Positions 19,910 through 23,992 of a stretch of DNA of 64,000 nt are shown piece after piece. The translations under genes and the position numbers were made by a program. The notes beneath the pieces were generated by a model. That model saw only the letters and a program-made list of their open reading frames with translations, did no database searches and was not told the origin of the DNA. This stretch comes from Streptomyces tateyamensis (GTDB lineage Bacteria; Actinomycetota; Actinomycetes; Streptomycetales; Streptomycetaceae): positions 62,001 through 126,000 of the forward strand of contig NZ_PYBW01000049.1 in the NCBI RefSeq assembly GCF_003205575.1, written 5' to 3'. Within the stretch, counting starts at the first letter, position 1, and each line of letters opens with the position of its first letter.

Positions 19910-20602
19910 TCACTCCTCGATCGCGCCGCCGACCCGGCGCAGGTGCTCGCGGAAGGTCAGCGCGGGCTCGGCGGCGCGCGCGGCCAGGAAGGCGTCGAAG
20001 CCGACCTGCTCGCGCAACGGGCGGCCCTGGTGGATCAGCTCGGCCTGGCGTCGCTCGGTGTCGCGGATCGCCTCTGCCAGCTCCAGCAGTTCGGGCAGCC
20101 GGTCGGCGGGCAGCAGGAGCGCACCGTCCTCGTCGGCCACCAGGTAGTCGGCGGTCGTGGCGGTCCACTCGCCGACCCGGGCGGCGCTGAGCGCGTCCGC
20201 CGCCCGCTCGCGCGCGGCGAGCGGGCCGGTGGGCAGCGAGCCGAGGCTGAACACGGGCAGGCCGATCGCCCGCAGGTCGGCGCTGTCCCGGTGCAGTCCC
20301 CAGATCAGCAGGCCGGCGAGCCCGGCCGCCCGGGCCTCCAGCGCGACCAGGTCGCCGACGCAGCTCTCGTCCAGCCGGCCCGCGTTGTCCACCACCAGCA
20401 CCTCGCCGGGGGCGGCCAGGGTGAGCGCCTCCAGGAAGACGTCCACGCTGCCCGCGTGCCGGGCGGGCCGCACCGGCCCGGCCAGGCGGGTGCCCGGAAC
20501 CAGCGCCCGGGTGCCGGCCGGCGCGCAGCGCACGGGCAGGCCGGCCCGCAGGCAGGCATCGGCGAGGTGGGCGCAGGTCAGCTCGGCGATTCGCTTGTCC
20601 AT
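19910..20602 (-). CDS. RraA-like / HMG aldolase-fold family protein
   Basis: A 230-residue protein of the RraA family, which contains regulators of RNase E and class II HMG/CHA aldolases. It shows TRLAGPVRPARHAGS, GEVLVVDNAGRLDESCVGDL (substrate/metal loop, usually G-x-VxVxD), and LLIWGLHRDSADLRAIGLPVF, equivalent to the family's GxxRDxxxL motif with Arg-Asp retained. The tail LREQVGFDAFLAAR is longer than RraA proper, favouring an aldolase-like enzyme. Start ATG 20602 lies six bases after TATAAA (minus strand), so it is probably leaderless, sharing a 29-base promoter region with the ThrRS leader. Confidence 0.75.
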   Translation of the reverse strand: MDKRIAELTCAHLADACLRAGLPVRCAPAGTRALVPGTRLAGPVRPARHAGSVDVFLEALTLAAPGEVLVVDNAGRLDESCVGDLVALEARAAGLAGLLIWGLHRDSADLRAIGLPVFSLGSLPTGPLAARERAADALSAARVGEWTATTADYLVADEDGALLLPADRLPELLELAEAIRDTERRQAELIHQGRPLREQVGFDAFLAARAAEPALTFREHLRRVGGAIEE

Positions 20603-20608
20603 ATCGGC

Positions 20609-20616
20609 TTTATAGC
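20609..20616. promoter_or_regulatory. Overlapping divergent -10 region (RraA-like and ThrRS leader)
   Basis: TTTATA at 20609-20614 reads TATAAA on the minus strand, six bases from the RraA-like ATG; TATAGC at 20611-20616 could serve as -10 on the plus strand, 15 bases before the leader-peptide ATG. Two divergent transcription units thus share one AT-rich box in a region of only 29 bases between start codons. Confidence 0.5.
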
Positions 20617-20631
20617 AGTACGGTGGCCGGC

Positions 20632-20688
20632 ATGAAGCGCGCTTGCATCGCCATGACGACGACGCCGGACACCGTCCCGGCGCGCTGA
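20632..20688 (+). CDS. Threonine-rich leader peptide of the ThrRS attenuator
   Basis: Encodes the 18-residue peptide MKRACIAMTTTPDTVPAR with four threonine codons (three consecutive ACG, one ACC). It lies 91 bases upstream of a threonyl-tRNA synthetase gene and just before alternative hairpins, the arrangement of an amino-acid biosynthesis leader. Part of its own coding region (GCCGGAC at 20664 and GTCCCGGC at 20674) can pair as an early hairpin, so a ribosome stalled at the ACG codons would change downstream folding. Product itself has no other expected role. Confidence 0.65.
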   Translation: MKRACIAMTTTPDTVPAR

Positions 20689-20703
20689 CTGCTGACCTGG
20701 TCC

Positions 20704-20754
20704 GAAGCCCCGGGGCGAACGCCCCGGGGCTTCGTGCTGTGCGGCGTTCGCCCC
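20704..20754 (+). promoter_or_regulatory. Candidate transcription attenuator with alternative hairpins
   Basis: GAAGCCCCGGGGC (20704-20716) pairs perfectly with GCCCCGGGGCTTC (20721-20733) around a GAAC loop: a 13-bp terminator-like stem. The segment GGGGCGAACGCC (20712-20723) can instead pair with GGCGTTCGCCCC (20743-20754). The two structures are mutually exclusive. The second arm lies 13 bases before the GAGGGAG ribosome site of the synthetase gene. Together with the Thr-rich leader this fits control by charged tRNA-Thr levels. There is no clear U-run after the first stem, so translation-level control is also possible. Confidence 0.6.
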
Positions 20755-20779
20755 CCAGAACGTCTTGAGGGAGAACGCC

Positions 20780-22000
20780 ATGCCCGACCACCGCAAGCTC
20801 GGCCGCGAGTTGGAGCTCTTCGACACCGACCCGCTGATCGGCGCCGGCCTGCCGTACTGGCTGCCGGCCGGGGCCGCGATCCGGCACAGCCTGGAGGAGT
20901 ACATCCGGCGCGAGGAGCGCCGGGCCGGGTACCAGCACGTGTACTCGCCGGTGCTGGGCAAACGCGAACTCTACGAACTCTCCGGCCACTGGGCGCACTA
21001 CCGCGAGGACATGTTCCCACCGATGGAGCTGGGCGCCGAGGAGGAGCTGGTCCTGCGTCCGAGCCTGTGTCCGCACCATGCGGTGATGTTCCGCTCCCGG
21101 TCCCGCAGTTACCGCGAACTGCCGCTGCGGATGGCGGAACTGGGCGGCATGTACCGCTCCGAGCGGTCCGGGGTGCTGGGCGGGCTGACCCGGGTGCGGG
21201 CCATCCAGCTGAACGACGCGCACATCTTCTGCACCGTCGAGCAGGTGGCCGAGGAGGCGCGCGGCGCGCTGGAGCTGATCCGGCGGGCGCACCGGGCGCT
21301 GGGCATCGGGCCGGTCCGCTACCGGCTCTCGCTCGCGGGGGACGGGGCCAAGTACGTGGCCGACCCCGAACTGTGGCGCCGCTCGGCCGAGTTGCTGGAA
21401 CAGGCGCTGGACGGGCTGGGCATCGAGTACGAGCGCGCGAAGGGCGAGGCCGCCTTCTACGGTCCGAAGATCGATGTGCAGATCACCGACAGCGCGGGCC
21501 GGGAGGCCACCCTGTCCACCGTCCAGGTCGACTTCCACCAGCCGGCCCGGTTCGACCTGCACTACGTCGGACCGGACGGCGCCAAGCACCGACCGGTGAT
21601 GGTGCACCGCAGCATCATCGGCAGCGTGGAGCGGGCGGTGGCCCAGCTGATCGAGCAGCACGGCGGGGCGTTCCCGGCCTGGCTGGCCCCGGTCCAGCTG
21701 GCAGTGCTGCCGGTCTCCGAGGAGCAACTGCCGGCCGCGCGGGCGCTGCTGGCCCGGGCCCGGGAGCTGGACCTGCGGGCCGAGCTGGCCGACCCGCGCG
21801 AGGGCAGCCTGGGCGCCCGGATCCGGGAGCACCGCCTGGTGCCCTACCAGGCGGTGCTGGGCGCCAAGGAGGCGGCGGACGGTGCGGCGGCCCTACGGCT
21901 GCGCGACGGCCGGCGGCTCGAACCGCTGCCGGTGGAGCGGGTGCTGGCCGAGCTCGGCGCGGTGGTCGCCGACCAGCGCGCCGAGCTGTGGCCGCACTGA
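20780..22000 (+). CDS. thrS: Threonyl-tRNA synthetase, short form without TGS and editing domains
   Basis: Charges tRNA-Thr with threonine. At 406 residues it lacks the about 240-residue N-terminal TGS and editing domains of the housekeeping enzyme. The class II catalytic core (about 15-300) keeps the three zinc ligands that recognise threonine: Cys97 in LRPSLCPHH, His148 in NDAHIFC, and His276 in PVMVHRSIIGS. Motif 2 (RELPLRMAELGGMYRSE) and motif 3 (HRSIIGSVERAVAQLIE) are present. The anticodon-binding domain covers about 300-400. The usual TQDD before AHIFC is IQLND. ATG 20780 follows GAGGGAG. Such second copies can be stress or resistance forms, for example against ThrRS inhibitors. It is controlled by the leader described at 20632-20754. 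Confidence 0.9.
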   Translation: MPDHRKLGRELELFDTDPLIGAGLPYWLPAGAAIRHSLEEYIRREERRAGYQHVYSPVLGKRELYELSGHWAHYREDMFPPMELGAEEELVLRPSLCPHHAVMFRSRSRSYRELPLRMAELGGMYRSERSGVLGGLTRVRAIQLNDAHIFCTVEQVAEEARGALELIRRAHRALGIGPVRYRLSLAGDGAKYVADPELWRRSAELLEQALDGLGIEYERAKGEAAFYGPKIDVQITDSAGREATLSTVQVDFHQPARFDLHYVGPDGAKHRPVMVHRSIIGSVERAVAQLIEQHGGAFPAWLAPVQLAVLPVSEEQLPAARALLARARELDLRAELADPREGSLGARIREHRLVPYQAVLGAKEAADGAAALRLRDGRRLEPLPVERVLAELGAVVADQRAELWPH

Positions 22001-22201
22001 CGCGCAGTCGGGCCGAGCGGCTGCGGTGCCCGTGGCCAGCGGCACTGCGGTGCTGAGTGTGCGGTACCTGAGACGCCATCAAAGTTCGCGCCGCTGCCCA
22101 GGCGAGCCCCCTTCCTGGGCCGAGCGGGTGACTTCGTCGGCGCCGTTGAAGCCAGGCACGGCGGGCTGCGGCATGATCGATTCCGGCAGGCAGTACCACT
22201 G

Positions 22202-22272
22202 GGTGGAGTGGCCGAGGGGCGAGGCAACGGCCCGCAATGCCGTGCACATAGGTTCGAATCCTGTCTCCACCT
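22202..22272 (+). tRNA. tRNA-Cys (GCA), aberrant anticodon loop
   Basis: A 71-base cloverleaf: acceptor GGTGGAG pairs with CTCCACC, discriminator U73 (Cys identity element), anticodon stem ACGGC/GCCGT, T-arm ATAGG-TTCGAAT-CCTGT, no encoded CCA. The anticodon loop is CCGCAAT with GCA at 22234-22236. Position 33 is C instead of the near-universal U, and position 38 is T instead of A. The T-stem also differs from the usual streptomycete tRNA-Cys. It may be a tRNA pseudogene or a specialised minor cysteine tRNA. It lies 200 bases after the short thrS and just before a strong hairpin. Confidence 0.8.
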
Positions 22273-22282
22273 CAGGAAACGA

Positions 22283-22327
22283 CGAGGGCCGGTCGGCCGG
22301 GGGAATCCCCGGACCGACCGGCCCTCG
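22283..22327. terminator. Bidirectional hairpin between tRNA and alpha-galactosidase
   Basis: CGAGGGCCGGTCGG at 22283 pairs with CCGACCGGCCCTCG ending 22327, with CCGGGG/CCCCGG extending the stem inwards. It sits 10 bases after the tRNA and 15 bases beyond the stop of the leftward alpha-galactosidase gene. Confidence 0.88.
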
Positions 22328-22342
22328 CGCCGGGCCTGCTGG

Positions 22343-23992
22343 TCAGCTCAGCGTGAACTTCTGGTTGCTGCCGCCGTTGCACGTCCACAGCTCCAGCAGG
22401 GTGCCGTCCGTGGTGGTGGCACCGGTCGCGTCCAGGCACAGGCCTGACTGCACGCCCGTGATGCTGCCGTCCGCGTTGAACTTCCACTGCTGGTTGGTCT
22501 GCCCGTTGCAGGTCCAGGTCTGCACCTTGGTGCCTGCGGTGGTCTGGTTGTTGAAGGCGTCCAGGCAGAGGGTGGCCGCGCCGGTGTAGAGGGTGATCTG
22601 GTTGGCGGCGGTGCGGGTGAAGACCTGGTTGGTGCTGCCCTTGCAGGTGAAGAGCTGCAGCTGCACGCCCGTGACGGGGTTGGTGTCACCGTGCGGCTGG
22701 TCCAGGCACTTGCCGCTGCCGGCCCCGTTCAGCACACCGGCGTTGAGCGCGGTGGCGTTGCCGCCGGAGAGGCGGTAGACGACGGTGCCGTGGGCCGGGA
22801 CGGAGGCGCTGATCGCACCGGTGGTGGAGCTGGTGGCGCCGCTCCACAGGTCGGTCAGGCCGTAGGAGGCGGCGCCGGTCTTGCCGACCGCGGCCGCGCT
22901 GGTGGAGATGGTCGCGGTGCTGCCGCCCTCGTTGAACAGCGCCACCGCCACGTCACCGCCCGCCAGCGGCTTGGCCAGCACGTCCAGCCCGCCGGCGGCG
23001 TCGACCAGGTGCGCCTGCTGACTCAGCGAGTCCTGGTCGACCGCGATCAGCCGGGCGTTGGTCAGGGTGGCCAGCGCGTCGGGGCTGGTCCTGCCGAAGT
23101 CGTTGCCGGCGATCAGCGGCGCGGCCATCATCGACCAGAGGCTGAACTCGGAGCGGTCCTCGATGGCGGACATCCCGTTGCCCACCTCGAGCATGTCCGG
23201 GTCGTTCCAGTGGTGCGGACCGGCCCAGGCGCCCAGGCCCACGTTGGCGTGGAAGATCGACAGCATGCTGCCGTAGCTGGCGTTGATGTCGCCGGTGGTG
23301 CGCCAGGAGTTACCGGTCGCGGCGCCCCAGATCCAGGGCGAGTCCTCGCCCCAGTTGCAGATGCTGTACAGGATGTGGTGGCCGGTGGCGGCCAGCGCGT
23401 CGCGCATCGCGGTGTAGCGCTGCCGCGAGGGAACGCCGTTGTTGTAGCAGTTGTCGTACTTGAGGTAGTCCACGCCCCAGGCGGCGAACAGGTTGGCGTC
23501 CTGGCCCTCGTGGCCCAGGCTGCCGGGGAACTGCTGGCAGGTCATGGTGCCGGCGGACTCGTAGATGCCGAGCTTGAGGCCGAGCGAGTGGACGTAGTCG
23601 GCGACGCCGTTGATCCCGTCCGGGAACCGGGCCGGGTCGGCGACCAGGTTCCCGTTGCCGTCCCGGTCGTGGGTCATCCAGCAGTCGTCGATGTTGATGT
23701 AGGTGTAGCCGGCGGCCTGCATCCCGTTGCTGTGGATGGCATCGGCGGTCGACTTGATCAGCGCCTCGGTGGGACCGGGCTTGCCGTCGACCCCCGGGGC
23801 GCAGCCGAAGGCGTTCCAGGTGTTGAACCCCAGCTGCGGGGTGGTGGCCACGGTACTGTCCGGCGCGGCGGCGGCGGCGACCGGCGCGGTGGCCAGCGCG
23901 ACGGCGGGCACCGCGGGCACCACGAGGGCGAGGACGGCCACCGCTGCGGCCTTGCGGCGCAGCAGCGAGCTGGCTGCCTGGCGAATGTGCAT
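22343..23992 (-). CDS. Secreted GH27 alpha-galactosidase with ricin-type lectin domain
   Basis: Removes alpha-linked galactose from galactomannans and oligosaccharides outside the cell. The 549-residue precursor has a signal peptide (about 1-43), a GH27 (alpha/beta)8 barrel (about 50-340) with LGFNTWNAFGC, YINIDDCWM, nucleophile Asp180 in YLKYDNCYNNG and acid/base Asp235 in RTTGDINASYG, a beta-sandwich domain (about 340-425), and a C-terminal R-type lectin (about 425-549) with three QxW-type repeats (NQVF, NQQWKF, NQKFTL). ATG 23992 follows GGGGAG. The promoter side shows TTGACG as possible -35. No substrate-specific regulator adjoins it. Confidence 0.94.
   Translation of the reverse strand: MHIRQAASSLLRRKAAAVAVLALVVPAVPAVALATAPVAAAAAPDSTVATTPQLGFNTWNAFGCAPGVDGKPGPTEALIKSTADAIHSNGMQAAGYTYINIDDCWMTHDRDGNGNLVADPARFPDGINGVADYVHSLGLKLGIYESAGTMTCQQFPGSLGHEGQDANLFAAWGVDYLKYDNCYNNGVPSRQRYTAMRDALAATGHHILYSICNWGEDSPWIWGAATGNSWRTTGDINASYGSMLSIFHANVGLGAWAGPHHWNDPDMLEVGNGMSAIEDRSEFSLWSMMAAPLIAGNDFGRTSPDALATLTNARLIAVDQDSLSQQAHLVDAAGGLDVLAKPLAGGDVAVALFNEGGSTATISTSAAAVGKTGAASYGLTDLWSGATSSTTGAISASVPAHGTVVYRLSGGNATALNAGVLNGAGSGKCLDQPHGDTNPVTGVQLQLFTCKGSTNQVFTRTAANQITLYTGAATLCLDAFNNQTTAGTKVQTWTCNGQTNQQWKFNADGSITGVQSGLCLDATGATTTDGTLLELWTCNGGSNQKFTLS

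Follow-up and report, generated by a model that had tools for sequence, protein, structure and literature searches.

Results

A second threonyl-tRNA synthetase gene behind a short leader

The window, that is, the whole 64-kb stretch of DNA that was analysed, carries a threonyl-tRNA synthetase (ThrRS) gene, thrS2, at positions 20780-22000 of the forward strand, directly after the leader element described below. The encoded protein of 406 aa consists of the catalytic and anticodon-binding domains only, without the N-terminal or the editing domain. It scores 446 bits over cut-off against the curated ThrRS profile TIGR00418 (profile positions 172-561), and its only Pfam matches are tRNA-synt_2b and HGTP_anticodon. 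A full-length thrS, for which Pfam adds tRNA_SAD (the second additional/editing domain), is found on contig C423 of the same genome. The window gene is thus a second ThrRS gene, as the preliminary description of this DNA had proposed, and one without the editing domain. When aligned to solved ThrRS structures, its product keeps the LCPHH, NDAHIF and VHR segments, the sites of the zinc ligands.

Several relatives (L014, L019, L045, L109, L150, L176) encode a ThrRS2 with a variable N-terminal extension in which Asp/His repeats abound, for example MSDHDHDHDHDH, which is absent from the window protein and is perhaps metal-related. For several of the thrS2 orthologues matched in a class-wide protein search, the match is given with one in-frame TGA, which may fall after the true stop. 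The leader ATG is separated by about 30 bp from the start of a divergent RraA-like gene (19913-20602, reverse strand); the two promoters must therefore overlap. The sole tRNA gene in the window, tRNA-Cys(GCA), lies about 200 bp 3' of thrS2 (22202-22273, forward strand).

A conserved leader ORF with clustered threonine codons

An 18-codon ORF rich in Thr codons had been described upstream of the synthetase gene. It is present at 20632-20688 on the forward strand (here thrL, encoding MKRACIAMTTTPDTVPAR*), and contains ACG-ACG-ACG at 20656-20664, the proposed stall site, plus one more Thr codon, ACC. Four nearby genes use ACG as the minor Thr codon (13 times vs 82 for ACC), and three ACG in a row are therefore unlikely by chance (about 0.3%).

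The DNA upstream of thrS2 was read in relatives as well as in 80 named genomes of actinobacteria, and the alignment for which the preliminary description had called revealed a conserved Thr-rich ORF. The 108 completely readable orthologous leaders are 15-28 codons long and represent 76 distinct peptides; every one of them contains TTTP, and 100 end in VPAR*. Since Thr makes up only 0.4% of the residues in the variable N-terminal part before TTTP, a chance origin of these codons is ruled out. Across 138 distinct codon contexts, selected by a filter that demanded at least two Thr of three, the first Thr codon is ACG in 133, ACC in 4 and ACT in 1, while the second and third are always ACG; the changes at the first codon comprise 5 synonymous and 0 non-synonymous ones. 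The element thus has a short, translated-looking ORF with clustered cognate codons and with a conserved start, stop and -10 element.

This -10 element, TACGGT (20619-20624, forward strand), lies 7 nt 5' of the leader ATG. In most of the 108 loci, the T and A of TANNNT stand at a constant distance from the ATG, and the orthologue in S. lividans is leaderless according to the RNA-seq data reported for it (PMC8079986). Together these point to a leaderless leader transcript in the window, with its 5' end at or beside the ATG.

Further upstream, 29 of the 108 loci (0.3 expected) carry a WblC-type GAAAWY box at a fixed distance from the leader ATG, about 45 nt 5' of it, and GAAA alone is found there in 67. 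In S. coelicolor, thrS2 is listed among the genes activated by WblC, an antibiotic-stress regulon (PMC7157823, Table 1), and sigma-E has been reported to bind at SCO3778, a ThrRS gene, under ethanol stress (PMC10771440); we equated the S. coelicolor and S. lividans genes with thrS2 by peptide similarity and locus-tag order. The box was not found upstream of the window leader or of that of its closest relative (L010), suggesting that the antibiotic-stress input has been lost or changed in their lineage.

The boxes and the WblC regulon would be in keeping with a sensor of translation stress or drugs, in which the nascent TTTP..VPAR* peptide arrests ribosomes together with some antibiotic, independently of Thr-tRNA. 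We consider this highly improbable: the window and its closest relative are without the box, three divergent loci (L156, L177, L178) lose VPAR* yet keep their Thr codons together with the RNA stem, and the synonymous sites of the leader tail are invariant, which fits a constraint on the RNA. With VPAR* gone from divergent loci, a conserved peptide was also rejected as the primary signal.

Mutually exclusive hairpins predicted to depend on the position of the ribosome

The leader RNA is predicted to be 4.2 SD more stable than its dinucleotide shuffles, none of which (0/200) was as stable. Hairpin 1:2 (20663-20682, forward strand; 20663-20668 paired with 20677-20682, dG -10.8) overlaps the last Thr codon; it appears in the RNAalifold consensus of 27 sequences and is kept in the divergent L177, L178 and L156. 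The long, GC-rich hairpin 3:4 (20703-20734, forward strand; 20703-20716 with 20721-20734, dG -32.7 kcal/mol), which also appears in the consensus fold, had been described as a perfect 13-bp stem at 20704-20733; the stem stands but is one pair longer, with 14 bp closing a 4-nt loop. Between them, helix 2:3 (20673-20717, forward strand; 20673-20680 with 20710-20717) is predicted when a ribosome sits on the Thr codons, with a nascent dG of -22.9 in the window. Its sequence is almost invariant, which makes a covariation test impossible.

In folding of the nascent RNA, the predicted structures differ between a stalled ribosome and one at the stop codon. With the ribosome at the first ACG, helix 2:3 forms ahead of the emergence of the 3' arm of hairpin 3:4, and does so in 108 of 108 species. 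At the stop codon the ribosome covers strand 2 (20673-20680), leaving the 5' arm free for hairpin 3:4. In these computations, the position of the ribosome sets which of several mutually exclusive structures can form, as 1:2, 2:3, 3:4 and the helices A:B and B:C described below share strands.

No terminator-like T-run was found within 20400-22400; an intrinsic terminator after hairpin 3:4 was rejected on this ground, and the combination of terminator hairpin and U-tract that marks the classical trp-type attenuator is absent. The order of 1:2, 2:3 and 3:4 and the nascent folding would nonetheless fit the trp paradigm, with 3:4 as a terminator lacking a U-tract, the stall-formed 2:3 as antiterminator, and the A/B/C pairings secondary; the S. 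lividans trpL2 is, according to the account given of it, terminated with hairpins and without a U-rich stretch (PMC8079986). Beside the missing T-run, termination at the S. lividans thrL itself is called 'not clear' in the passages on that leader (PMC8079986), and this reading would not explain why A:B and B:C, both situated past the decision point, covary. Classical transcription attenuation as the main output therefore appears unlikely to us, although not implausible.

A probable three-segment switch at the Shine-Dalgarno region

Three segments on the forward strand are involved in a second set of exclusive pairings: A (20712-20723), an antisequestor strand buried in hairpin 3:4; B (20743-20754), which can pair with A or with C; and C (20767-20779), which comprises the Shine-Dalgarno region GAGGGAG and the spacer to the ATG of thrS2. 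An alternative pairing between A and B had been pointed out before, and it is indeed a perfect 12-bp match with a duplex energy of -26.2 kcal/mol. As a description of the switch, this pairing stood but was incomplete, because B also seals the Shine-Dalgarno region: in the minimum free energy (MFE) structure, 20743-20749 pair with 20773-20779 and 20751-20753 with 20769-20771. As B pairs with both, A would be a decoy of the Shine-Dalgarno flank.

Covariation, which the preliminary description had proposed as a check, is clear for A:B. Compensatory changes were found in 8 cells at 5 of the 12 pairs, against 1.2 expected and with 0/500 shuffles reaching this level; slid controls were far worse, and in an 83-sequence set the result was 0/1000 shuffles. 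In the window and its nearest relative, for instance, GAACG/CGTTC replaces the common GAGTG/CACTC. An A.C mismatch breaks A:B in 11 of the 83 sequences, and two loci (L083 and L054) are without a clear B.

RNAalifold recovers the B:C helix unprompted. Usually CTCGC of B pairs with GCGAG(GAG) of C, and in one clade CCACTCG pairs with CGAGTGG(AG). Because the registers differ between clades, covariation of B:C measured in one fixed register is weak to modest (19/500 shuffles). In a register-free partner-swap test, the locus's own B beats swapped B segments as partner of A, and its own C beats swapped C segments as partner of B, each with 0/5000; among 46 divergent representatives the values are 0/5000 for A:B and 4/5000 for B:C. 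Shared ancestry inflates such swap and shuffle tests, and repeated, differing letter changes weigh more than the counts. The MFE fold, the consensus fold and the swap test agree on a helix at the ribosome-binding site that excludes an upstream helix, as in a translational attenuator.

The loci that diverge most, L177 and L178, read GAGCCC in A, GGGCTCC in B and GGAGCCC in C; hairpin 1:2 is kept here, and the codons of the Thr run are visible in L177 and lie outside the stretch examined in L178. These two loci rebuild A/B/C in other letters with the same logic.

About six bases are common to helices 2:3 and A:B, and the two cannot be complete at the same time. A pseudoknot in which A:B forms with hairpin 3:4 intact was considered and rejected. 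Its loop has only four bases and the complementarity of B reaches well into the 5' arm (C/U opposite G's), so we think that hairpin 3:4 must open for A:B to form.

A constitutive leader, in which the ORF does no more than supply thrS2 with ribosomes through coupling or reinitiation and the structures only tune basal expression, could draw on reinitiation at leader ORFs, a documented general effect (PMC4833913). The stop codon lies about 90 nt from the start codon, however, which is long for reinitiation, and neither the position-specific Thr codons nor the mutually exclusive, covarying helices would be explained; of all the readings considered, we hold this one to be the least probable.

The leader and thrS2 occur together

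The element is present at every thrS2 locus with enough upstream DNA among the relatives and the 80 named genomes, including records from Nocardia, Nocardiopsis, Streptosporangium, Streptoalloteichus, Crossiella and Actinocrispum. When 395 genomes of the class were searched both with a covariance model built on the leader and with the thrS2 protein, thrS2 was found in 62, a strong model score in 59, and both in 58. The one strong leader match without thrS2 (G286) is at a contig start. Of the genomes with thrS2 and no strong match, two (G203, G344) have no leader match and the gene at a contig end, and two (G252, G261), whose proteins are 54-56% identical, have a divergent version of the leader with the Thr codons retained.

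Outside the class but within the phylum, one genome (G484, locus L188) has a complete leader, a perfect match, before a thrS2 74% identical. This suggests that leader and thrS2 travel together, and looks like a transfer of the whole unit, or contamination.

Across the class there are also weak matches of about 32-37 bits: those at L157-L166 do not precede thrS2, and a further pair (L173, L175) is found close to genes resembling full-length thrS. In the source genome, no further copy came near the score of the thrS2 element. A search of the window at Rfam gathering thresholds returned only a tRNA and no T-box or other family, and a known RNA family of this kind was rejected at these thresholds. 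T-box leaders, although not matched here, and the E. coli thrS operator resemble the element in that a synthetase gene is controlled by cognate charging or by the enzyme. In the E. coli operator, ThrRS binds its own mRNA, which needs protein binding to tRNA-like arms.

Discussion

Relation to known attenuators

The preliminary description had regarded a peptide-type attenuator on thrS as something out of the ordinary. This does not hold, since a precedent exists: in S. lividans TK24, thrL (SLIV_19412; peptide MKRVRPFLETTPGFVPAR*) has been listed before thrS (SLIV_19410), and for Streptomyces trpS, leuS and alaS, too, upstream peptide attenuators have been published (PMC1262725, PMC8079986). 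As presented there, the S. lividans thrL resembles the window leader in its place before thrS, its 18 codons of the form MKR...TTP..VPAR*, its leaderless start, its single hairpin and the missing U-rich stretch, and differs in having two Thr codons rather than three. It is treated as a transcription attenuator, and the passages on thrL mention neither a switch at the Shine-Dalgarno region nor a comparison across species nor a phylogenetic range (PMC8079986).

The attenuators of Streptomyces trpE, trpS, leuS and alaS, as far as these sources describe them, likewise combine a short leader ORF, cognate codons and competing hairpins (PMC1262725, PMC8079986), and the amino-acid and synthetase attenuators of S. 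lividans are given as leaderless in most cases (PMC8079986). In the accounts of the well-supported ones (trp operon, leuS), a terminator hairpin is followed by a U-tract, whereas the window has no U-tract and its ribosome site is sealed by a helix that covaries. Among actinobacteria, a likeness by description is also found in the mycobacterial polycysteine ORFs, leaderless short ORFs with runs of cognate codons that are cited as regulating translation of downstream genes (Canestrari et al. 2020, via PMC9031893); their codons are for cysteine, not threonine, and their targets are other than a synthetase. The kind of system is thus already known, and what is new is the Shine-Dalgarno decoy switch with its covariation support and its range. 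We found no earlier description of the ribosome-binding-site switch in the open-access literature.

A model for the control of thrS2

The conserved Thr codons, the covarying switch helix and the near-complete co-occurrence with thrS2 make a Thr-codon leader attenuator of the backup ThrRS a well-supported reading of the sequences. We judge it probable, with some room for doubt, that this is a Thr-responsive, ribosome-mediated attenuator with mainly translational output. The Thr codons, A:B, B:C and the linkage to thrS2 are supported by comparison; stalling, the order of folding, the direction of regulation and a translational rather than transcriptional output are what we infer.

In the model, the leader ATG is where the transcript would begin. 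As long as Thr-tRNA suffices, ribosomes would pass ACG-ACG-ACG to the stop codon and cover strand 2, allowing hairpin 3:4 to form and bury A; B would then pair with C and seal the ribosome site of thrS2 (OFF). Under a shortage of Thr-tRNA or of ThrRS activity, a ribosome would stall on the ACG codons and break hairpin 1:2, strand 2 would take the 5' arm of 3:4, and the released A would pair with B, exposing the Shine-Dalgarno region (ON). Leader RNA that is not translated is predicted to fold mostly without 2:3, and would thus be OFF.

A translational output is probable because B lies downstream of the hairpin, after which there is no U-tract; lying beyond the hairpin, B could not influence intrinsic termination there through A:B. 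Termination at hairpin 3:4 in addition to translational control is possible. At equilibrium the OFF fold is still favoured in the stalled state (-61.5 vs -51.6 kcal/mol for forced A:B), so that ON would need co-transcriptional (kinetic) trapping.

A wider reading, which we advance tentatively and hold to be somewhat doubtful as a whole, is that of a widespread actinobacterial three-way RNA switch. A stall at Thr codons would free the hidden decoy A, which would strip the anti-Shine-Dalgarno segment B from the start site of the editing-domain-less backup ThrRS and so may provide on-demand tolerance of natural ThrRS inhibitors.

These results give a concrete, covariation-supported model for an element whose earlier listing, in one strain, did not settle how it works. 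They tie an editing-domain-less duplicate ThrRS to threonyl-tRNA shortage, and a role in tolerance of ThrRS inhibitors or in threonine stress is now testable. As the layout of the decoy is kept while its letters change completely, the element would offer a clean system for translational attenuators without a U-tract in high-GC bacteria.
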